Made by a program: the position numbers and the translations under genes
NCBI GenBank assembly: GCA_016124575.1
Contig: WGNM01000010.1
Coordinates: 1-45,791 of the forward strand
DNA length: 45,791 nucleotides
Source: Cryomorphaceae bacterium
Lineage (GTDB): Bacteria; Bacteroidota; Bacteroidia; Flavobacteriales_D; Sanyastnellaceae
Direction of reading: 5' to 3'
Shown: piece by piece, positions 172 through 14,074 of the stretch
Layout: every line of letters begins with the position of its first letter
Position numbering within the stretch: position 1 is the first letter of the stretch
The notes under the pieces: model-generated
The model's database searches: none
What the model was told of the DNA's origin: nothing
What the model saw: the letters and a program-made list of their open reading frames with translations, nothing else

Positions 172-2040
172 ATGTTATCTAATTACGACGTAATTGTTGT
201 CGGCGCCGGACACGCTGGTAACGAAGCTGCTGCTGCTGCCGCAAACCTTGGTTCGAAAGTGCTCCTCATTACAATGAACATGGGCACCATCGGACAAATG
301 TCATGCAATCCCGCAATGGGAGGAATAGCCAAAGGCCAGATTGTCCGCGAAATTGATGCAATGGGAGGATACTCCGGTATTGTTTCCGATAGATCGATGG
401 TGCAATTCAGGATGCTAAATAGATCAAAAGGGCCAGCGATGTGGAGTCCGCGCACCCAAAACGACCGTGCACTTTTCTCCCAATACTGGCGTATGATGTT
501 GGAGGAAACACCTAACGTAGACTTCTGGCAAGACATGGTTACATCGTTAATCATCGAGAACCACACTGTTTGCGGCGTTCGCACAGCGATGGGCGTTGAA
601 ATAAAATCAAAGTCTGTAATTCTCACCAATGGCACCTTTCTAAACGGCACCATCCACCTTGGTGAAAAACAATTTGGTGGTGGAAGGGCAGGCGAGGGAG
701 CCGCATTTGGTATCACAGAGCAGCTCTTCGAAAATGGTTTTCAAACAGGCCGTATGAAGACTGGAACTCCACCGAGAATAGACGGAAGGTCGCTCAATTA
801 CAACTTGATGGAAGAGCAACCGGGAGATGCTGATGTCACCGGTTTCTCATATTTAAACATAGAAAAGCCAGCCAGACAACTTAGCTGTCATATCACCTAT
901 ACGAACGAAAACGTCCACGACATTCTCCGCACTGGATTTGATAGATCGCCGATGTTCAACGGACGAATTCAGGGAACTGGACCGCGGTACTGTCCTTCGA
1001 TAGAAGACAAAATAAATCGCTTTGCTGATAAAGATCGCCATCAAATATTTGTAGAACCAGAGGGCTGGAATACGGTAGAAATTTACGTAAATGGCTTCTC
1101 AACCAGTTTACCTGAAGACGTGCAATACGCCGCGATGAAACAAATTCCTGGTTTTAAAAATGCGAAGATGTTCCGTCCAGGCTATGCCGTTGAATACGAC
1201 TACTTTCCTCCAACACAGCTTTACCACACCCTCGAAACTAAGAACCTACCAGGCTTGTATTTCGCAGGACAAATTAACGGAACTACCGGCTATGAAGAAG
1301 CTGCTTGTCAAGGACTAATGGCTGGCATTAATGCGCACTTAAAGATCAACGAAAAAGAAAACCTCATACTGAATAGGAGTGATGCCTACATTGGTGTTTT
1401 GATAGATGACCTTGTAACTAAGGGTACTGATGAGCCTTATCGCATGTTTACTTCGCGGGCTGAGTACCGCATACTGCTTCGTCAAGACAATGCCGATGAA
1501 CGTTTAACACCACTTTCTCATTCCTTGGGATTGGCCACCGATGAACGGATGGGGGCAACGACCAATAAACTGAAATCCATTTCAGAGCTCAAGTCTTTTT
1601 TATCCAACCAAAGTGTTGAGCCGTCTTTACTAAACCCCATCCTCGAGCTAAAAGGCAGTTCACCCATAACTCAAAAAGTAAAAATCGGTGGTGTTCTGAC
1701 ACGTCCGCATATCGTGTTTGAAGATATCCTCGCTGCTTCCCCAGAACTTCAAAACCATGTCGACACCCACAATCTAACCACCGAAGAAATTGAGTGTGCA
1801 ACAATATCTCTCAAATACGAGGGTTATATCCAAAAGGAAAAAGAAATGGCAGATAAAGCGAGTCGACTTGAAGACATTCTGCTTCCTGAAGACTTCGAAT
1901 ATGCCCGATTAACCAACATCAGTATTGAAGCACGTCAGAAACTAACAGAAATCAAACCACGGACGATCGCACAGGCATCTCGCATCTCGGGGGTTAGTCC
2001 GGCTGATGTTTCGGTGCTCCTCATCTATCTCGGACGATAA
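172..2040 (+). CDS. mnmG: tRNA uridine-5-carboxymethylaminomethyl modification enzyme MnmG (GidA)
   Basis: This FAD-dependent enzyme works with MnmE to build the cmnm5 group on the wobble uridine of certain tRNAs in the cytoplasm. The 622-residue length is normal for the family. The FAD-binding dinucleotide motif GAGHAGNEA lies near residues 11-19, and family blocks such as [53 protein letters not shown] and [17 protein letters not shown] are all present. The C-terminal helical domain that contacts MnmE and tRNA appears complete. The ATG start sits just before [11 protein letters not shown], as usual. parS-like palindromes flank the gene on both sides. It appears to be transcribed alone. Confidence 0.98.
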
Positions 2041-5054: not shown

Positions 5055-5515
5055 AAGACCTCGGCGTATTTGTATTGGCTAGCTCCCTTTCAGTTGTAGC
5101 AATCTACCTAATAGGTAAAACTGAGATTTTAGGCGGACATGATACAACAGATAACCTCAACGAATCATTTTTAGCTGCGGGTTGTGCCATAAATGCTGTT
5201 ATTGCTTTCGTAAGGGGATATCTCTTCTTCGAACCTCTTGATAACATTAACACCCTCGATGAAGAACAATCTATTCAGGTTTCACAACCCGCTTATTCAC
5301 TGTTTTGGATTCAGATCATACATCCCCTTGGATTGCTTATCAGCATGTCGTTATTGACATATATTATCATGTTCTCTTTTGAGACATTTCACGGCGATGT
5401 AGTCGCATGGTTCACCACCGATATTCTAAAGTCTAGTCTGTTATTGAGTGCGGGCGTCGCTATTCTCTTAGCCTCAACCTTTCACATTCGACATTTGAAC
5501 ATGCGAACTACTTGA
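5051..5515 (+). CDS. Small multi-pass membrane protein of unknown function
   Basis: A 154-residue protein that I do not recognise. It shows about four hydrophobic segments: near residues 3-22 (VFVLASSLSVVAIYLIG), 43-63 (AAGCAINAVIAF), 88-113 (IIHPLGLLISMSLLTYII) and 128-147. The start is GTG, overlapping the stop of the TlpA-like gene in the four-base form GTGA, which suggests translational coupling and perhaps a role with that protein. Its 3' end overlaps the convergent M28 peptidase gene by 8 bases. No catalytic motif is visible. Confidence 0.7.
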   Translation: MKDLGVFVLASSLSVVAIYLIGKTEILGGHDTTDNLNESFLAAGCAINAVIAFVRGYLFFEPLDNINTLDEEQSIQVSQPAYSLFWIQIIHPLGLLISMSLLTYIIMFSFETFHGDVVAWFTTDILKSSLLLSAGVAILLASTFHIRHLNMRTT

Positions 5516-7076
5516 AATCGTTCTGAACATTTACAACCAACTTCCCGTCGCGATTTGCAATATCCCACGCCGTTAAAAACACCAACCGGGCAATGGTCGC
5601 AGTTTTATCGTACATAATCTTATCGGGAGTGTCCGTCGGTTTGTGGTAATCTTCATGAACGCCACTGAAGTAGAAAATGCAAGGAATGTTGTTCTTAGCG
5701 AAGTTATAGTGGTCGCTGCGATAGTAATAGCGATTTGGATCTTTTGGGTCGTTGTACGTATAATCGAGTTCTAAATTTGTGTACGTTGCATTTGTCTTTT
5801 CAGATATTTCATGCAGTTCAGTGCTCAATTTATCTGATCCAATCAAATAAACATAGTTCGAATCGGCGTGTTCAGGATCCACTCTTCCTATCATGTCAAT
5901 ATTCAAATCAACAACCGTAGATTCAAGCGGGAAAACGGGGTGCATGGTGTACCATTCACTTCCCAACAATCCTTTCTCTTCTCCTGAAACGAGCATTAAA
6001 AGGACACTTCTTCTTGGTCCGTGACCTTCATCCTTAGCCTTTTTAAACGCCTGTGCAATTTCCAAGACCGATACCGTTCCAGAACCGTCATCATCGGCAC
6101 CATTGTAAATTTCGCCATCAATTATTCCAACGTGATCATAATGGGCAGTAATTACAACCACCTCGTGTTTAATGATTGGGTCTGATCCCTCAATAAAACA
6201 AAGTACGTTGTCGCTTACAAACTTATTCTCGTCTCTTTTTACAGAGATTGAAGCTTCGTTCTTAGTTAGTTTTGATTTGGGCACACGTTTCTTACGAATC
6301 GACTTGATCATTTTCTCACGAACCTTCTTACCACCAACCAATTTATCTAGCACTTCAGGGCGGACGAAAAAAGTAGGGAGAACCTCACTTCTTTCCTCTC
6401 TTTCCATATCGAGTTTCATTCCTGGATTTGTGAGAAAGTATTTAATGCGCCCTACATATTGATCGTAATCATTGTTCAAAATAACTAAGGCTCTGGCGCC
6501 CAATCTTTCTGCAGCATCGCGTTTTATGCGCCAATCTCCTGACCATTCACTTGGTGACTTTTCGTTGGTAACGAGCGACAATCCATCTGAAGAAAAAGGC
6601 TCTCCATTGAGCACTACAACAATCTTATCCTTAACACTTATGCCCGCGTAGTCATTGTAATATTCACTTTCAACACCATATCCTGCGAACACCACAGAAC
6701 CCTTTAATTCAGTTTGATTGAACCCTGGGAAAAAGTAAAAATCTTCGTAGAAAGAGTAGTTTTTGTCTCCAACAGTCATTTCAGCACTTACCGTTTTCTC
6801 CGTGCGAAGGGGAAATTCTTGCTGGTAGCTACCATCTATGCATCCAGCAACACCCAGACCTTTGAAATAGTCTACAATATAATCTGACGCTGCCTTTTGT
6901 CCGGCCATTCCTGTCTCACGTCCTTCAAATTTATCCGACGCCAGAATCATCAAATGCTGTCTTAACTCATCAGCAGTTATTGTTTCGCTGTAGCGCAATG
7001 CAACGGTATCTTTCTGACAAAACCCAGGTACACTAAAAGACAAAAAGAGTACTATGATTACTAACTTATTCATCAT
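5508..7076 (-). CDS. M28-family zinc aminopeptidase, exported
   Basis: A secreted or periplasmic metallopeptidase of 522 residues. The signal peptide (MMNKLVIIVLFLSFSVPGFCQ) supports an ATG start at 7076, or the adjacent one at 7073. Two-zinc M28 ligands are visible in VVITAHYDHVG, YNGADDDGSGT, LVSGEEKGLLGSEWY, NIDMIGRV and YRSDHYNF. A PA-like insert (about residues 110-230) lies ahead of the catalytic region, as in many bacterial M28 peptidases. The likely reaction is removal of N-terminal residues from peptides. The start overlaps the rpiB stop (ATGATGA), so the two genes share a transcript. There is no C-terminal T9SS sorting domain. Confidence 0.9.
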   Translation of the reverse strand: MMNKLVIIVLFLSFSVPGFCQKDTVALRYSETITADELRQHLMILASDKFEGRETGMAGQKAASDYIVDYFKGLGVAGCIDGSYQQEFPLRTEKTVSAEMTVGDKNYSFYEDFYFFPGFNQTELKGSVVFAGYGVESEYYNDYAGISVKDKIVVVLNGEPFSSDGLSLVTNEKSPSEWSGDWRIKRDAAERLGARALVILNNDYDQYVGRIKYFLTNPGMKLDMEREERSEVLPTFFVRPEVLDKLVGGKKVREKMIKSIRKKRVPKSKLTKNEASISVKRDENKFVSDNVLCFIEGSDPIIKHEVVVITAHYDHVGIIDGEIYNGADDDGSGTVSVLEIAQAFKKAKDEGHGPRRSVLLMLVSGEEKGLLGSEWYTMHPVFPLESTVVDLNIDMIGRVDPEHADSNYVYLIGSDKLSTELHEISEKTNATYTNLELDYTYNDPKDPNRYYYRSDHYNFAKNNIPCIFYFSGVHEDYHKPTDTPDKIMYDKTATIARLVFLTAWDIANRDGKLVVNVQNDFK

Positions 7077-7504
7077 GAGCAAGCAATTTTATTTACACGG
7101 TTGGCATGACGCCCACCTTCAAACTCTGCAGAAAAGAAAGCTTCCATAATATCGTTGGTTTCTGCTTCAGAGGTAAACCGAGCTGGAATACAGCAGATAT
7201 TTGCATCGTTGTGTTGAACAGCCAAAGAAGCTATTTCAGCATTCCAACAAATAGCAGCGCGTATTTTCTGATGTTTGTTGGCTGTGATGGCTACACCATT
7301 TGCAGAACCACATATTAACACACCTAAATCTGTCTTATTAGAAGCAACCGATTCGGCTACTGCATGAGCATAATCAGGATAATCTACAGAATCAGTTGAG
7401 TGAGTGCCTAAGTCTTCAACAGCGAATCCCTTCGATTCTAACCAACTAACAATCAGTGATTTTCTATCAAAACCAGCATGATCGGAACCAATTGCTATCT
7501 TCAT
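7073..7504 (-). CDS. rpiB: Ribose 5-phosphate isomerase B
   Basis: Interconverts ribulose 5-phosphate and ribose 5-phosphate in the pentose phosphate pathway. The 143-residue length is typical. Family features are the start MKIAIGSDHAGFDRK, the catalytic cysteine in LICGSANGVAITANK (Cys65), His98 in QHNDAN and the arginine in CIPARF. Many RpiB proteins have GTGIG where this one has GSANG, a variant that also occurs in Bacteroidota RpiB. Allose 6-phosphate or galactose 6-phosphate isomerases share the fold, but nothing in the context supports them. It is the first gene of the rpiB-M28 pair. Confidence 0.93.
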   Translation of the reverse strand: MKIAIGSDHAGFDRKSLIVSWLESKGFAVEDLGTHSTDSVDYPDYAHAVAESVASNKTDLGVLICGSANGVAITANKHQKIRAAICWNAEIASLAVQHNDANICCIPARFTSEAETNDIMEAFFSAEFEGGRHANRVNKIACS

Positions 7505-7971
7505 TCTTTAATATTTGAGTCAAAGAAACGAATATTCGTTCAGAACAGCGACCTGCTCATACAGCTTTCAGTCCGTTCAAAACAATGTTAACTCAGCGTT
7601 AATAGATGTTGAATACTACTGAGTACTTTATTTTGAACTGTCGATTATTTAGTCTGATACAAATAGTTATGAAAACAACGACAAAAGATGTCTAAAGAAT
7701 TCAGAATAGAATTAACCAAAATTATATGGTTTATGAACGTCTATCAACAACAAACATATACCATCTTTGTATTTTAAGGAGAATGTTAACAACCACATCA
7801 AATCACTGATCATCAATCATAAATGACGTTAATTAGTTGTGTAAAAGGTTTGAGAAACGTTGACAAATGACATAAGCAAGGCGAATGAAGTTTAAATTTG
7901 AACCATATTAACACCCTAATAACAGACTACTATATCTTTTTAAAAAAATTAATTCTTGTATTTATAGAAAG
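7505..7971. other. AT-rich divergent intergenic region
   Basis: This 467-base region separates rpiB (-) from the YwqK operon (+). It is strongly AT-rich, contains no convincing reading frame and must hold the promoters of both operons. CATCTTTG at 7761-7768 is one base from TAnnTTTG but is about 200 bases from the YwqK start. I see no structured RNA or clear repeat. Confidence 0.5.
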
Positions 7972-9495
7972 TTGAAAACAGTTCAAAAGACCATATTGCT
8001 CATTTGCCTCTTGTGTAATTATTCACTTGAAGGAATTTCGCAGGCCGATACATTGGGCGTGCCTACCAAATTTTTCTATGAAAACGGTGTATTGTCTAGT
8101 GAAGGGCCGATGATAAATGGATTACCAGACGGTTTTTGGAAGACCTATTACGAAGATGGGAATTTGAAAACTGCGGGTAACAGGAAGAATCACTTGTTGG
8201 AAGGAGAGTGGTTTTTCAACAGGCCAGATGGCACATTGGAACGCATAATCACCTATTCTGCAGACAAGAGAAATGGATATACCAAAGAGTTCTCAGCTGA
8301 TAGCATTGTGATAGCTCAGATACCTTACGAAGGAGACATACGTTCAGGCTTAGCAACCTATTTTTACGAAACCGGGGAGCGATATAGGGAAACCACGTTT
8401 GTAAATAACAAAGAAGAAGGGAAAGGGTATGAATACGATAAAGACGGACGTGTAATTACAAACCTTACTTACCAAAACGGATTTTTGAGATCCATTGAAA
8501 AGATAAACAGGTATCAAGACGGACAAAGAACAGGGTATTGGATTGATTTGTATCCGAATGGAGTGAAGAAAGAAGAAGGAAATTATCGATACGGATTAAG
8601 GAATGGTGTTTTCAAGTTCTACAACAAGAAAGGAGACCTTGATAAAATGGAGCAATACGTTGATGGAGAGCTGATGAAAGATTCAGAATTGGCGGTTATT
8701 TTAGACATCCGAAAAGAATATTATCCCGATGGGAGGCTGAAATTGGTTGGTAGTTACAATGAAGGAAGTAAGCAAGGCGTGTTCAGAGAATACAATGAAG
8801 AGGGAGTACTTTCGAATGGTTATTTATACGAAGAAAATCTCAAAATCGGAGAAGGTGTAATAGATCCGGAGGGCAAGTATCAAGGACCATGGAAATTATT
8901 TTACCCAACAGGGGAGCTTAGAGCAGAAGGATCATATGTGGATGGATTGCGAGAGGGGCCTTGGAAGTTCTACTTCACCAATGGAAAAGTTGAACAACTT
9001 GGAAATTACAAAACCGGCAATGCTCACGGAGGGTGGAAATGGTTCTTTCAAAATGGTTCAGTAAAACGGGAAGAGAGCTTTAGAAAAGGAAAAGAAGACG
9101 GGGAGTTCTTTGAATACGACGAAGATGGTATTATCATTCACCAAGGCAGCTACATTGATGGCTTGAAAACGGGTCCGTGGATTTATCATGTCAACGACCA
9201 TAAAGAAGTCGGTGAATTCTTAGATGGAGAAAAGAATGGCAAGTGGAATTTTTACGTTGAAGACAAAGAAGTCATTTTTACAGGTGAGTATCTTGTCGGA
9301 ATACCCGTAGGTAAACACAAATATTTCTATCCGAATGGACGGATAAAATTAGAAGGTAAATACGAAGGTGGGGTGAGAGATGGCGATTGGAAGTATTTCA
9401 ATGAAGATGGTACTTTGGCAGTTGCCGTGAAGTATAACAATGGCGTAATGGCTAAAATTGATGGAGTAAAACTCCCGAAAGAGCTCGAAGAATGA
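7972..9495 (+). CDS. YwqK/MORN-type repeat protein, exported
   Basis: A 507-residue protein with an N-terminal signal peptide (hydrophobic core ILLICLLCNYSLEG) followed by about 18-20 beta-hairpin repeats of roughly 20-24 residues with the pattern GxWKFYxxNGxxxxxGxYxxG. Examples are GPWKLFYPTGELRAEGSY and GPWKFYFTNGKVEQLGNY. This is the repeat once named 'toxin-antitoxin system YwqK antitoxin' and related to MORN repeats. Such proteins are common in Bacteroidota and their molecular role is mostly unknown; no toxin is present here. The start is TTG, with no closer ATG. The stop overlaps the downstream kinase start (ATGA), which suggests it acts with that kinase, perhaps on the envelope side. 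Confidence 0.85.
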   Translation: MKTVQKTILLICLLCNYSLEGISQADTLGVPTKFFYENGVLSSEGPMINGLPDGFWKTYYEDGNLKTAGNRKNHLLEGEWFFNRPDGTLERIITYSADKRNGYTKEFSADSIVIAQIPYEGDIRSGLATYFYETGERYRETTFVNNKEEGKGYEYDKDGRVITNLTYQNGFLRSIEKINRYQDGQRTGYWIDLYPNGVKKEEGNYRYGLRNGVFKFYNKKGDLDKMEQYVDGELMKDSELAVILDIRKEYYPDGRLKLVGSYNEGSKQGVFREYNEEGVLSNGYLYEENLKIGEGVIDPEGKYQGPWKLFYPTGELRAEGSYVDGLREGPWKFYFTNGKVEQLGNYKTGNAHGGWKWFFQNGSVKREESFRKGKEDGEFFEYDEDGIIIHQGSYIDGLKTGPWIYHVNDHKEVGEFLDGEKNGKWNFYVEDKEVIFTGEYLVGIPVGKHKYFYPNGRIKLEGKYEGGVRDGDWKYFNEDGTLAVAVKYNNGVMAKIDGVKLPKELEE

Positions 9496-12400
9496 CAGAC
9501 AATATTGATCAGTGGATGCACCACAGCAGTGATGCATTGTTGAAAGTTTGTCTTGATACAGGAAAGATGGTCGGCTCAAATGGTCCGGCCGCTTGGCTTT
9601 TGTCTGTAATTTGTGGACAAGGAGCCAATCAGATAACAGACAATCAATTCTCGCTGTTTATAAAAACGTTGGCTGAGTCTTTACTCAACGAAGCCATGGC
9701 TGAGTTGACGATTAAAGACGGTATTTCGCTTCGAGGCGTCAGAATTATAAATTGTCAGAATGTTTTGGTGACCATCGTATCAAGCAACATCGCTTTTCCT
9801 GGAAGGAAAGCTTTAATGGCGTTTGAAAACAATGTTGCGGGTATTTATGAGTCGTCATTCGAAGGAAAATTGATATCCTTTAACGATGCGTTTTGCGAAT
9901 TGTTAGGATACAAAAGAGGAGAGTTGCTCGAATTAAAAAGCACTGAATTGTACGTTCACCCAAAAGAGCGCGACGAGTTCATTAAGCTTATTTCCTTAAA
10001 TGGTAAGATCAATAACAGAGAAATTCGATATCAACGCAAAGACGAAACGATTGCCTGGTGTTTAGAAAATGCCTTCATCTTTGAGAATGGAGAAAGGAAA
10101 CACATTATAGGAACCTTGGTTGATATAACCGAACAAAAGCGAAATAAAGATCGTTTCGAGAATCTTTTTTTTAGCTCCGCAGATGCTGTTTTTTTAATTG
10201 AAAACAACATAATAACTCAAGCCAACAACCGTTCTTCCGAAATTTTCGGATATAGTACGAATGAGTTATACACACTCGATGTTTTCCATCCAAAAATGGG
10301 ACTATTTTTACTGTCAGATGCAGATGTTGCCATTATTTCGAAGAATTTCAGTTCCCTGAGATCAGGAGAATCGGAGCGAAAGAAACTCATCGCAAGAAGA
10401 AAGAACAACAGCTTGTTTCATAGTGAAGTTATTATTTCAAAGTTTCAAGAAGCAGGTGCATCCACTCTTCAATTGGTTGTTCGAGATATTTCAGAACGCG
10501 TGCTTTATGAGGAAGCAATACGTGAAAGTGAAGAACGATTTAAGTTATTAGCACAAGTCTCTATTGAAGGAGTTGCTTTTGTAACAAATCGTGCAATTAC
10601 CGATTGTAATCCACAATTTTCATCACTTTTTGGTTATTTGACGAGTGAAGAAGTGATCGGAAAAAAGCTGAACGAATTCATAGGAGAATCTGAACTATCG
10701 CGTTTGGAGCAAACCATCGACATTAGAAGTGTAAACAAAACAGAAGTCATTACCAAAGCAAAAACAGGTCAGAGCCTGGTGTTGGAAGTAACTTGCAGCA
10801 ACATAGAATACCAGCAAAAAGACATGCAGGTGTTTATGTTTTACGACGTTACATCGCGTAAGCGGGCTGAAAAGGCCCTCGAACAAACTACCGAGCGTTA
10901 CAAATCACTCGTAGAGCAATCGCCAAATGGTATTTTCATCCTCACCGATGGCAGAATAAAATACGTTAACCAAAGCGGAATTAACTTGCTTGATGCCGAA
11001 GAGGAAGATGATTTATACGACATGCCATTCATCGACTTTTTCAATCACAACGATGCGCAAAAGTTAGAAGAAGACCTCATAAGAACACGCGAAGGAGAAG
11101 ACGTTAGTTACCGTGAATACAGAATCCTCGACCGATCGGGCAATGAAATATTCGTAGGTTTTAAGCCAACACTTACCGTTTATGGAGGTGCGCCGTCAAT
11201 ACAAGTTACCACGAACAACCTCAGTGTTCAAGTACAATTGATGCAAGAAACCATGCGTGCGGAGATTGCTGAGGAAATCAATATTGTATTAAAAAGAGAG
11301 ATTGAAGAGCACAAGCGCACGCAAGACAAATTAAGAGCTGCCGAGAATTTCACCAGAAATATCATTCAAAGTTCCATCGATATGATCATAGCCGTCGATA
11401 GGAACAGTAAAATCACAGAGTTCAACCCCGCTGCGCAGGTTCAATTTGGATACACACTCCACGAGGTTATCGGGCAAGATTTAACCATGTTGTTTAAAAA
11501 TAAAGCAGAAGGAAAGAGAGTACTCAAAGAAATTCAAGACAACCAAACCTTTAGTGGCGAGATCACCAATATTACCCAATCTGGAAAGGAGTTCACCTCA
11601 CTGTTGTCGGCAAGTATTATTCGAGATGAAACAGGAGTTGTATTTGGGTCAATGGGTGTTTCGCGCGACATCACAGAATTAAAGAAAGCGGAGAAAGAGT
11701 TGCGGGAGAGTGAAGAGCGTTATCGCGATTTGTTTGAGAATGCTACAGACCTTATTTTCAGTATCGATGGAAGTGGGAAATTCAAGTACGCTAACAATGC
11801 TTTTTGCGAAAAAATCGGGGTATCGTCGAGCTCATTGTCTGCCCTTACCATTCAATCAATAACAAAAGGCAAACTCGATAAAAACCTTTTCGAATGGTTC
11901 GGAGAGCGCACCTTGGAGTTGACACTCATTTCGAAATCTGGCGAAGAGATTCAGGTTTTCGGGTCGACCACCATCCGCAGAAAAAACGACAAACCCGATA
12001 GTTTGCGAGGAATTTTCAGAGATGTAACAGCACTGCGAATGACCGAGCTAAGGGCCAAAGAGCAAGGGGCTAAGCTTGACTCTATATTCAACTCAACCGA
12101 GAACATGATGATCTGGACTTTGAACAAGTCTGGGCAGGTGACCAGTAGAAATGAAAATTTTATCAAATGGCTCAAGCATGATTTCGGAATAGAATTAACA
12201 TTCAATGGCGACGAGACATTCTTTGATGTCTTGAATAACAGTATAAATCGCGATTTAGATCGGTTCGACATCAATATTTTCAAGGAAGTATTCAAAGGAA
12301 AGCCAAAACAATTCGAATTGCCACTTATGACTTCTCATGGCGAAAACGAATGGTTTCAGTTGTTCTTGAATCCAGTGCGCGTGCATGACACAATAGAAGA

Positions 12401-13073
12401 GATTTCTTGTTTGGCGTATGACATCACCGACAGAAAAGAAATGGACCGCAGAATTTTAGGATCGCTCAAGGAAAAAGAAGTCCTACTTCAAGAGGTGCAT
12501 CACCGTGTAAAAAACAACCTCCAAGTCATAAGTAGTATTCTAAATCTGCAATCATCGTTTGTTGATGATGAGCGAATTTTGGGCATCCTCGAAGAGAGTC
12601 AAAGCAGGATAAAGACCATGAGCTTCATTCATGAAACGCTATATCAGACCGCCGACTTTTCATCCATCGATTTTTCAGAGTACATCAACACCCTTGCGAA
12701 GAACCTTGTGCAATCGTACAGCAGAATTGATTGCCGCATAGAGCTTGAGACTCATTTTCAGGATATAACGCTGAATTTAGATCAGGCGATACCGAGCGGA
12801 CTAATTGTTAATGAGTTGGTTAGCAATGCCATGAAGCATGCGTTCAAAAACAGAACGAAGGGATTGATAAACCTATCTGTCACCGAGAAAGGAGGCAAAG
12901 TAACAATTAGTGTTTCAGATAACGGAGTTGGTTTGCCTGAAAGTTTTGACCCAAAAGAATCTGATTCACTGGGTATTTATTTGGTTCATGCCCTCATCGA
13001 ACAACTCGACGCGCAGATGGAAATTATTAGTCGTTCAGGCACCACCTTTTTGATTACTTTTGGAAAGCAATAA
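9492..13073 (+). CDS. Multi-PAS sensor histidine kinase, HisKA_2 type
   Basis: A 1193-residue kinase with no obvious signal peptide or membrane segment, so probably cytoplasmic. After an unassigned N-terminal part (1-110) come about seven PAS modules, roughly at 110-225, 225-345, 346-465, 466-590, 620-740, 745-865 and 870-990; several end in the PAC-type phrase DITEQKR or DITELKK. The HisKA_2 box HHRVKNNLQVISSILNLQ carries the phosphoacceptor, probably His1004. The ATPase domain has the N-box NELVSNAMKHAF (Asn1107) and G1 box DNGVGLP (Asp1143). This kinase type normally pairs with a response regulator, and one starts 11 bases downstream. A helical linker (about 590-625) lies between PAS4 and PAS5. 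Signal unknown. Confidence 0.92.
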   Translation: MTDNIDQWMHHSSDALLKVCLDTGKMVGSNGPAAWLLSVICGQGANQITDNQFSLFIKTLAESLLNEAMAELTIKDGISLRGVRIINCQNVLVTIVSSNIAFPGRKALMAFENNVAGIYESSFEGKLISFNDAFCELLGYKRGELLELKSTELYVHPKERDEFIKLISLNGKINNREIRYQRKDETIAWCLENAFIFENGERKHIIGTLVDITEQKRNKDRFENLFFSSADAVFLIENNIITQANNRSSEIFGYSTNELYTLDVFHPKMGLFLLSDADVAIISKNFSSLRSGESERKKLIARRKNNSLFHSEVIISKFQEAGASTLQLVVRDISERVLYEEAIRESEERFKLLAQVSIEGVAFVTNRAITDCNPQFSSLFGYLTSEEVIGKKLNEFIGESELSRLEQTIDIRSVNKTEVITKAKTGQSLVLEVTCSNIEYQQKDMQVFMFYDVTSRKRAEKALEQTTERYKSLVEQSPNGIFILTDGRIKYVNQSGINLLDAEEEDDLYDMPFIDFFNHNDAQKLEEDLIRTREGEDVSYREYRILDRSGNEIFVGFKPTLTVYGGAPSIQVTTNNLSVQVQLMQETMRAEIAEEINIVLKREIEEHKRTQDKLRAAENFTRNIIQSSIDMIIAVDRNSKITEFNPAAQVQFGYTLHEVIGQDLTMLFKNKAEGKRVLKEIQDNQTFSGEITNITQSGKEFTSLLSASIIRDETGVVFGSMGVSRDITELKKAEKELRESEERYRDLFENATDLIFSIDGSGKFKYANNAFCEKIGVSSSSLSALTIQSITKGKLDKNLFEWFGERTLELTLISKSGEEIQVFGSTTIRRKNDKPDSLRGIFRDVTALRMTELRAKEQGAKLDSIFNSTENMMIWTLNKSGQVTSRNENFIKWLKHDFGIELTFNGDETFFDVLNNSINRDLDRFDINIFKEVFKGKPKQFELPLMTSHGENEWFQLFLNPVRVHDTIEEISCLAYDITDRKEMDRRILGSLKEKEVLLQEVHHRVKNNLQVISSILNLQSSFVDDERILGILEESQSRIKTMSFIHETLYQTADFSSIDFSEYINTLAKNLVQSYSRIDCRIELETHFQDITLNLDQAIPSGLIVNELVSNAMKHAFKNRTKGLINLSVTEKGGKVTISVSDNGVGLPESFDPKESDSLGIYLVHALIEQLDAQMEIISRSGTTFLITFGKQ

Positions 13074-13084
13074 CCACCCTAACA

Positions 13085-13834
13085 ATGTCAGTTAATATAC
13101 TAGTTACAGAAGACGAGAGTATTGTCCGAAAGGACATAGAGCGCAGCTTAAAGAAACTTGGATACAACGTAGTTGGATCAGCGGATACCGGTGAAAGAGC
13201 CGTTGAGTTAGCAATTGAATTGAGACCTGATTTGGCCCTGATGGATATTATGCTCAAAGGAAAAATGACGGGGATTGAAGCTGCAGAGCAGATTAAGAAA
13301 AACATCGATATTCCGATTATTTTTTTGACCGCCTACGCTGATGAGAGCACACTTGCAAAGGCGAAGGTGACAGAGCCTCACGGATATATTTTAAAGCCGT
13401 TTAAAGAGATCGATATCCACACGTCGATTGAGATGGCGATGCACAAACACAAGAAAGAAAGAGAGCTGCGCATTGAAGCAGATTTATTGAGAAGTTTGAC
13501 CGAACACAAAGACGGAGCAGAATTGCTGTTTGTGAAAAGCAACTCTCAGCTGGTAAAGCTTGATATAGATAAAACCCTGTATGTTGAAGCACTAAAAGAC
13601 TATGTGGTGATTCATACCGAACATGCTGATTACACCATTCACTCTACAATGAAAGACATCGAAAAGAAGCTACCGAAAGTTCATTTCGTGCGCGTTCACC
13701 GATCTTTCATAGTGAACATACATAAAATTTCAGCCATTCAAAGCAGTGCCTTGTTGCTTGAAAACGGCGACAAAGAAATTCCTATTGGCGGGTCATATAA
13801 AGACCAAATAGGTGAAAGAATAAACGCATTATAA
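13085..13834 (+). CDS. LytTR-type DNA-binding response regulator
   Basis: A 249-residue two-component regulator. The receiver domain (1-120) has acidic residues DE in VTEDES, the phosphoacceptor Asp54 in LALMDIMLKGK, Thr in IIFLTAYADE and Lys in HGYILKPF. A charged linker leads to a LytTR domain (about 148-248) with VEALKDYVVIHT and FVRVHRSFIVNI, the DNA-contacting core typical of LytR/AgrA-family regulators. It lies 11 bases after the multi-PAS kinase gene and is its probable partner. Target genes are not visible; a LytTR site (paired 9-base repeats) was not found in the operon upstream region. A bidirectional terminator follows. Confidence 0.94.
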   Translation: MSVNILVTEDESIVRKDIERSLKKLGYNVVGSADTGERAVELAIELRPDLALMDIMLKGKMTGIEAAEQIKKNIDIPIIFLTAYADESTLAKAKVTEPHGYILKPFKEIDIHTSIEMAMHKHKKERELRIEADLLRSLTEHKDGAELLFVKSNSQLVKLDIDKTLYVEALKDYVVIHTEHADYTIHSTMKDIEKKLPKVHFVRVHRSFIVNIHKISAIQSSALLLENGDKEIPIGGSYKDQIGERINAL

Positions 13835-14074
13835 AGATAAAACAGCCCTCAAGTGGGCTGTTTTAGTTTCATCAAATGGCTGCGAATTGTACGATTGCCA
13901 TTGGTTTGGCTGAGAGAAACTCAGCCAAACCTGACCAAGAAAATTGAACTTTAAGTATTCATCGCCCGACTCATTGAGTTTGATTGTCAGCGCTTCACCA
14001 GGGCTTTTTTGAGACCAAAGCTGCGCTGAACCACTGGTTAGAGCAACCAGTAGCAGGAGTATGTGATATTTCAT
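13829..14074 (-). pseudogene. Truncated porin gene (N-terminal fragment only)
   Basis: The 81-codon frame begins with a good signal peptide (MKYHILLLLVALTSGSAQLWSQ) and then LTIKLNESGDEYLKFNFLGQVWLSF. The latter resembles the first strand of phosphate-selective-porin-like outer-membrane proteins of Bacteroidota, which normally run to about 400 residues and then continue with an arginine-rich strand. Here the frame runs into the terminator of the LytTR gene: the last 12 codons are the hairpin itself. The rest of the porin is absent, so this looks like a deletion remnant. It follows the SulP gene by 12 bases, the usual transporter-porin arrangement. It could instead be a short secreted peptide, but that is less likely. 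Confidence 0.65.
13838..13866. terminator. Bidirectional terminator between LytTR regulator and porin remnant
   Basis: The stem AAACAGCCC / GGGCTGTTT (13840-13848 and 13855-13863) encloses the loop TCAAGT. T-rich tails are present on both strands. On the minus strand the hairpin lies inside the reading frame of the truncated porin gene. Confidence 0.85.

Follow-up and report, generated by a model that had tools for sequence, protein, structure and literature searches.

The genes for a YwqK repeat protein, a multi-PAS histidine kinase and a LytTR response regulator appear to form an ancient block, probably a single unit, that flanks the chromosomal replication origin (oriC) on the right in many Bacteroidia in the GTDB sense, with the YwqK protein as an exported and separable component rather than an obligate part of the sensor. 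We assign this reading a probability of about 0.6. The block was found in a 45,791-nucleotide stretch of a Cryomorphaceae genome (contig WGNM01000010.1), referred to here as the window, where the order is rpiB <- oriC -> YwqK - PAS kinase - LytTR regulator (Table 1). The origin call, the gene order with its depth, and the domain make-up are computed. In the proposed mechanism, the PAS stack of the kinase would read an internal cue, with a membrane domain added in some lineages, and the kinase would phosphorylate the LytTR regulator. The phosphorylated regulator would then switch genes, perhaps including its own operon, and the YwqK protein would be an output of the unit or a passenger. The position at the origin would help to hold the genes together and would provide a high gene copy number in fast growth.

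A signalling operon flanking a likely origin is an arrangement that we did not meet in the open-licence papers searched and is new content; nothing in those papers connected LytTR, YwqK or rpiB to oriC in Bacteroidota. For a large group of Bacteroidota, in which oriC is commonly far from dnaA according to the accessible text of PMC4755523, the locus provides a precise prediction of the origin and of its unwinding element. The nearest gene block on one side of the likely origin is a signalling operon, which raises the question whether replication control in Bacteroidota receives input from a sensor kinase. The regulator could tie conditions to growth, or it could simply be held at the origin by its position, and conserved gene order at this locus is not by itself evidence of a shared function.

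Table 1. Coordinates of predicted features around the three-gene block, in window positions.
Feature	Position	Strand	Remarks
mnmG/gidA	172..2040	+	5.5 kb from origin
Peptidase M28 family protein	5508..7082	-	beside rpiB in many relatives
rpiB, ribose-5-phosphate isomerase B	7073..7504	-	divergent, across origin; NCBIfam TIGR01120 above cut-off; neighbour in relatives
Predicted chromosomal replication origin (oriC)	7505..7971	.	between divergent rpiB and YwqK; skew minimum, low GC, unwinding element, skew flips in relatives
BUS-like origin unwinding element, predicted	7898..7945	+	DnaA-type box, CCC spacer, TAA TAA CAG trios, AT-rich run; held-out model 28.7 bits
MORN_2/YwqK repeat protein	7972..9495	+	507 aa, TTG start; putative signal peptide, then beta solenoid
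Multi-PAS histidine kinase, HisKA_2 type	9492..13073	+	1193 aa, ATG start; soluble
Kinase HisKA_2 domain	12492..12719	+	Pfam, residues 1001-1076
Kinase HATPase_c domain	12801..13061	+	Pfam, residues 1104-1190
Response regulator, receiver and LytTR DNA-binding domain	13085..13834	+	249 aa
Regulator LytTR domain	13547..13819	+	
Hairpin, 11 pairs	13838..13865	.	possible shared terminator at operon end

Gene content and domain make-up

The original prediction described three open reading frames, with a 4-base overlap between YwqK and the kinase and an 11-base gap between kinase and regulator, and an ORF check recovered all of these in place. It also described a kinase with about seven PAS domains and no membrane segment, which agrees with seven passing PAS_9 stretches (Pfam) and a top 19-residue hydropathy mean of 1.24. 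The YwqK protein matches MORN_2 (PF07661; E 4.1e-38, 125.3 bits against a cut-off of 29.6) with eight passing stretches, the kinase ends in HisKA_2 (3.5e-28) and HATPase_c (1.1e-11) domains, and the regulator combines Response_reg (1.4e-23) with LytTR (1.5e-22). With a HisKA_2 and HATPase kinase, an EDDTK receiver and a LytTR domain, the pair has the same domains and key receiver residues as HisKA_2 kinase-LytTR two-component systems. It differs from these in the very variable length of the kinase (about 610 to 2038 aa), in its position at an origin and in its YwqK partner.

The shared strand, the overlap seen in the window and the short intergenic distances of relatives suggest co-translation, and the three genes probably make up one transcription unit. 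The YwqK-kinase gap in 19 loci ranged from -26 to 55 bases and was at most 23 bases in 18 of them. The hairpin directly 3' of the regulator, called by the terminator tool on the minus strand only, could be the transcript end; terminator-like sites in the region number seven, against 4.9 (sd 2.3) in shuffles. Elsewhere in the same genome (L291 4373-8174, contig C46), a LytS-like kinase, recognised by eye, and a LytTR regulator occur with an epimerase-like gene and a MORN_2 protein. This was rejected as a second operon of the same kind because the epimerase-like gene intervenes, which makes it a looser neighbourhood of both families.

A predicted origin between rpiB and YwqK

The 467 bp gap between the divergent rpiB and YwqK genes is likely the chromosomal replication origin. 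Its GC content of 29.3% makes it, on a scale of 467 bases, the most GC-poor part of the window, and the cumulative GC skew reaches its minimum at 7818, the skew being negative left of 7.5 kb and then mostly positive over the next 38 kb. Local skew flips were found in 80 of 93 loci (73/79 with YwqK first, 5/10 with the regulator alone, 2/4 with the kinase first), and the cumulative minimum lies within the gap, to within 150 bases, in 65 of the 93. Since gene direction confounds local skew, which divergent genes alone could flip, whole chromosomes were also sampled. Chromosome G012, with YwqK at 3.63 of 4.10 Mb, has negative skew at 3.485 Mb and positive skew at 3.690 Mb, and its skew turns back at about 1.0-1.6 Mb. 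G107, where the regulator is alone at 1.758 of 4.63 Mb, changes from negative at 1.720 to positive at 1.770 Mb and returns at 3.68-4.14 Mb, and G528, from another family and with no regulator match, flips at 1.650-1.675 Mb and returns at 4.1-4.7 Mb. The opposite flip is thus about half a genome away in these three sampled chromosomes. In G394 the flip across the locus is weak (-0.021 to +0.024), and the skew is noisy along the whole chromosome.

Besides the window's own order, the neighbourhood of the origin was checked in 20 loci from 17 other family labels. A divergent rpiB lies upstream of YwqK in 17 of these 20, which were hand-picked, most of them for YwqK-regulator adjacency; among the three without it, one is truncated by a contig start, and the exceptions are L280 and L286, the latter with a flank of 781 bases. 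L292, a YwqK-only locus, has the divergent rpiB as well. In L293 (G304), rpiB is absent within about 9 kb of the YwqK orthologue and the skew does not flip; the gene has apparently moved off the origin.

The dnaA gene of the window's own genome is on contig C8, not beside the gap. The locus is unlike that of Melioribacter roseus, whose origin was placed between dnaA and dnaN in the accessible text of PMC3534657. For Flavobacteriaceae, oriC predictions have been published at mnmG (PMC11278836, PMC12843772), and mnmG is also near the origin predicted here. The flanks named in the accessible parts of those two papers are mnmG, with leuB and dnaA, and not rpiB, YwqK, the kinase or the LytTR gene; in PMC11278836, the text and a figure legend conflict on which end is oriC.

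The unwinding element was recognised with a 48-position model trained on 85 loci that excluded the window and its close relative L061. The best site in the held-out window, at 28.7 bits, is the element of Table 1, and the next best anywhere in the window scores 12.9. Sites above 8 bits occur in 72 of the 85 training loci (59/71 with YwqK first, 9/10 with the regulator, 4/4 with the kinase), and in 71 of these 72 the model site is the locus-wide best, a count from training loci for which the held-out window is the cleaner test. Among 22 loci of the class outside the training set, the best site is on the right strand and falls in the stretch from 1500 bases before the YwqK frame to 200 bases inside it in 17, the misses being L272, L278, L280, L286 and L293. 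Forty random 20-kb samples from two relatives gave a model maximum of 20.0 (median 7.3), and 7 of the 17 placed sites exceed that maximum. L273, L279, L281, L282, L287 and L288 have the element some 1.0-1.1 kb ahead of YwqK, a distance suggesting that a further gene separates YwqK from the origin. The called YwqK start in L065 (8783-10384, minus strand) seems to fall inside the unwinding element, where ATGAACACCCCTATG would encode MNTPM, and L064 is similar; both are called starts only.

Motif statistics were obtained from gaps trimmed at rpiB and describe rpiB-bearing loci only; 29 loci that lacked a recognised rpiB were removed, which left 102 loci and, of these, 86 non-redundant gaps. On visual inspection, a DnaA-type box, a short C-rich spacer, TAN triplets and then an AT run recur in the gaps, ahead of whichever gene comes first. 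The composite pattern AACA-N0-3-CC-N0-1-TAN occurs in forward orientation in 44 of the 86 gaps, compared with 6 in the reverse orientation and 6.5 after shuffling. There are 88 occurrences of TTATNAACA (7.8 when shuffled, sd 2.7) and 26 of TTATNCACA (2.7 when shuffled, sd 1.7), against only 4 of TTATCCACA. The palindrome ACGATCGT is enriched in 14 of the 86 origin gaps (L152, L158, L164, L165, L168, L173, L176, L179, L182, L186, L200, L202, L208 and L209), at 0.86 per kb versus 0.05 elsewhere.

The plan of the gap resembles that of the BUS, published as a box followed by a spacer and trios (accessible text of PMC8287927). BUS origins as described there and this gap are both AT-rich and share a skew minimum, DnaA-type boxes, a short spacer and TAN trios. 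They differ in that the box here is mostly TTATNAACA instead of TTATCCACA and that dnaA is on another contig; moreover, a strict box-trio rule modelled on the published one (at most two mismatches to TTATCCACA, plus trios) found no match in the window. No exact TTATNMACA is present in the 7505-7971 gap, and DnaA boxes in the window are weak, one-mismatch ones only, with seven in the best 500 bp versus six at 5.1-5.2 kb.

Conservation and separability of the three genes

The original prediction stood or fell with the conservation of the gene order in relatives, and the order is indeed kept in the window's own order and widely in the class. A regulator-anchored scan of named genomes, from which the best 80 loci were kept (a few genomes contributing two), left 69 loci with enough sequence upstream of the regulator to reveal YwqK, and the gene is there in all 69. 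Kinase and YwqK are both upstream in 67 of these, L193 has YwqK and a broken-up kinase region, and L200 has YwqK without a kinase; the other 11 of the 80 run into a contig edge, with 0-121 bases left to read. One of the loci found in this way, L135, is from Cryomorpha ignava (order Flavobacteriales). The MAG titles of L149 and of L132, L142, L146, L199 and L209 look wrong (one Euryarchaeota, several Chryseobacterium gleum), the regulator identity being 63-82%.

Within the order, 115 of 249 genomes have YwqK and 157 the regulator (E 1e-60). Within the class, which we take to be Bacteroidia of GTDB (the NCBI class of Cryomorpha is Flavobacteriia), a YwqK orthologue (E 1e-50) was found in 137 of 296 genomes, covering 34 family labels as counted by eye, and the regulator (E 1e-70) in 111. 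Both orthologues occur in 106 class genomes, and in 93 of them the regulator lies 0-8.5 kb downstream on the same strand, with 13 cases of non-adjacency; 31 class genomes have YwqK only and 5 the regulator only. Some genomes enter the set twice, under a G-handle and as a named record. A draw from the phylum gave YwqK in 1 of 198 genomes, although the rows listed were of the same order or class only, so this figure says little about other classes. The system is patchy, and the linkage of YwqK, kinase and regulator is ancient and more than chance.

The later locus counts were obtained by profile searches on stop-to-stop frames. All three genes are present in 95 fetched loci, including L158 and L168, and the first 93 of these full loci contain 84 distinct regulators. 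YwqK and regulator occur without the kinase in 7 loci, kinase and regulator without YwqK in 6, and the regulator alone in 12, the remainder being cut by contig ends. YwqK can remain where the kinase or the regulator is absent and can be missing where both stay, so it would be an output or passenger and not an obligate part of the sensor.

The key residues of the receiver (an acidic pair, the phosphoacceptor Asp, a Thr and a Lys) read EDDTK in all 95 full loci. The receiver is also intact in 8 of 9 YwqK loci that lack the kinase, L087 being the decayed one, so the regulator may answer another kinase there. In the regulator-alone loci it is intact in 9 of 12, with two ENDTK and one EDDSK. L087 (5230-5985, G024) has lost the kinase and has DLDCK at the key receiver positions, with the LytTR domain still well conserved. 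Receiver decay as a rule after kinase loss, an idea prompted by L087, was dropped, as decay was seen in 1 of 7 kinase-less YwqK loci and two more such loci are intact.

These patterns bear on whether the order is maintained by position only, in the sense that conservation of order around the origin keeps the genes together and YwqK is functionally unconnected to the kinase and the regulator; we consider this rather unlikely. The unrelated enzyme gene rpiB, on the far side of the origin, also accompanies YwqK faithfully in the hand-picked loci, so that the gene order is at least partly held by position. YwqK furthermore persists alone, and the lone regulator is found beside a recognised rpiB in 10 of its 12 loci. 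On the other hand, the common strand, the overlap and the short gaps in relatives argue against position as the only cause. So does the shrinkage of the YwqK-regulator gap after kinase loss: in the census, 8 class genomes have this gap below 400 bases, at 76-193 bases. A sequence search found no kinase in L274 and L289, the two of these eight that were fetched. The earlier statement that genes this tightly linked usually act together is therefore weakened: overlap and short gaps favour one transcript, but the likely origin also keeps rpiB, and the parts are separable both ways.

The YwqK protein and possible actions of the regulator

The model of the YwqK protein, built with 23 aligned orthologues (mean pLDDT 88.9, pTM 0.52), consists of an N-terminal hydrophobic helix (residues 2-21) followed by one continuous beta solenoid. 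Foldseek matched it to the Morn1 crystal structures 6t69, 6t6q and 6t4r, with E near 1e-8 and TM by target of 0.55-0.58. The predicted fold shares the beta-hairpin solenoid with Morn1 and differs in having about 20 hairpins, counted by eye, in a single rod and a signal-like helix at the N-terminus. The best-scoring Foldseek matches were to Rhs/teneurin, which we rejected as the fold since the TM was at most 0.17 and the rmsd near 30 A, i.e., the overlays are meaningless. The protein is probably exported, as had been proposed. A hydrophobic stretch precedes the first repeat in the window and in 102 of the 115 distinct orthologue frames whose N-terminus could be read, a count that may be slightly high with stop-to-stop frames; export itself is read from sequence.

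An exported solenoid could bind a ligand or the envelope and report to the kinase as an accessory sensor. The translational overlap and the deep co-conservation with the kinase fit such a role, as do the YwqK-linked kinases with a membrane bundle in some lineages: at least two membrane segments were found in 6 of 93 YwqK-linked kinases (two added ones lack the bundle) and in 3 of 16 in a further set; within family label f9, 4 of the 5 YwqK-linked kinases fetched have them. The remaining 87 of the 93 have fewer than two segments, so most YwqK-linked kinases would be unable to meet an exported partner directly, and YwqK stays by the regulator once the kinase is gone (7 loci). We therefore regard an accessory sensor as improbable. 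The original prediction had placed YwqK either in the sensing path or among the outputs; the former is unsupported, with YwqK and the kinase-regulator pair separable in both directions, and the protein could still be an output. All six kinases without YwqK have at least two membrane segments and all six belong to f9; as this is a family effect, membrane segments were dropped as an argument against YwqK-kinase contact.

YwqK repeats are usually labelled antitoxins, as the original prediction remarked, and the locus is a different context for them. The family is named after the antitoxin YwqK of Bacillus subtilis, a name that implies a toxin-neutralising protein. That the protein discussed here has this function is highly improbable. 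It is conserved together with a kinase, a regulator and an origin, and the scanned neighbours (rpiB, the M28 peptidase, the kinase, the regulator and a SulP-type transporter) include no toxin gene or family. The sole NCBIfam match, to adhesin LIC20035, is below the cut-off, at 116.9 of 250 bits.

It had further been suggested that the 7505-7971 gap holds a LytTR site for autoregulation. GTTNAT half-sites are frequent in the 86 gaps (419 versus 158.5 in shuffles), but we rejected them as a LytTR autoregulation box: the enriched form is TGTTNATA, which is TTATNAACA-like and occurs alongside TTATNCACA at a locus where the skew flips. The half-sites thus match DnaA-type origin boxes and cannot be taken for LytTR sites, so they lend the suggestion no support. 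The generic LytTR half-site occurs 81 times in the gaps against 56.8 (sd 7.3), an excess that DnaA-type boxes may explain. The control set of other intergenic regions has a GC content of 0.49 against 0.31 in the gaps, so shuffles are the fairer control. No LytTR motif distinct from DnaA-type boxes was found in the 86 gaps.

Response regulators of the CtrA and MtrA type control replication initiation. In a similar manner, the LytTR regulator might act on the origin, by binding oriC or through transcription away from the unwinding element, and the PAS kinase might thus couple a metabolic cue to replication initiation in Bacteroidia, the regulator staying beside the origin where YwqK and the kinase are missing. 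We consider this unlikely. The search for a binding site found none, and the regulator could be kept there by its position alone. In favour of the idea, a regulator that has lost both partners is still located at the origin, and YwqK starts beside the unwinding element, which ends 26 bases ahead of the start of that gene.
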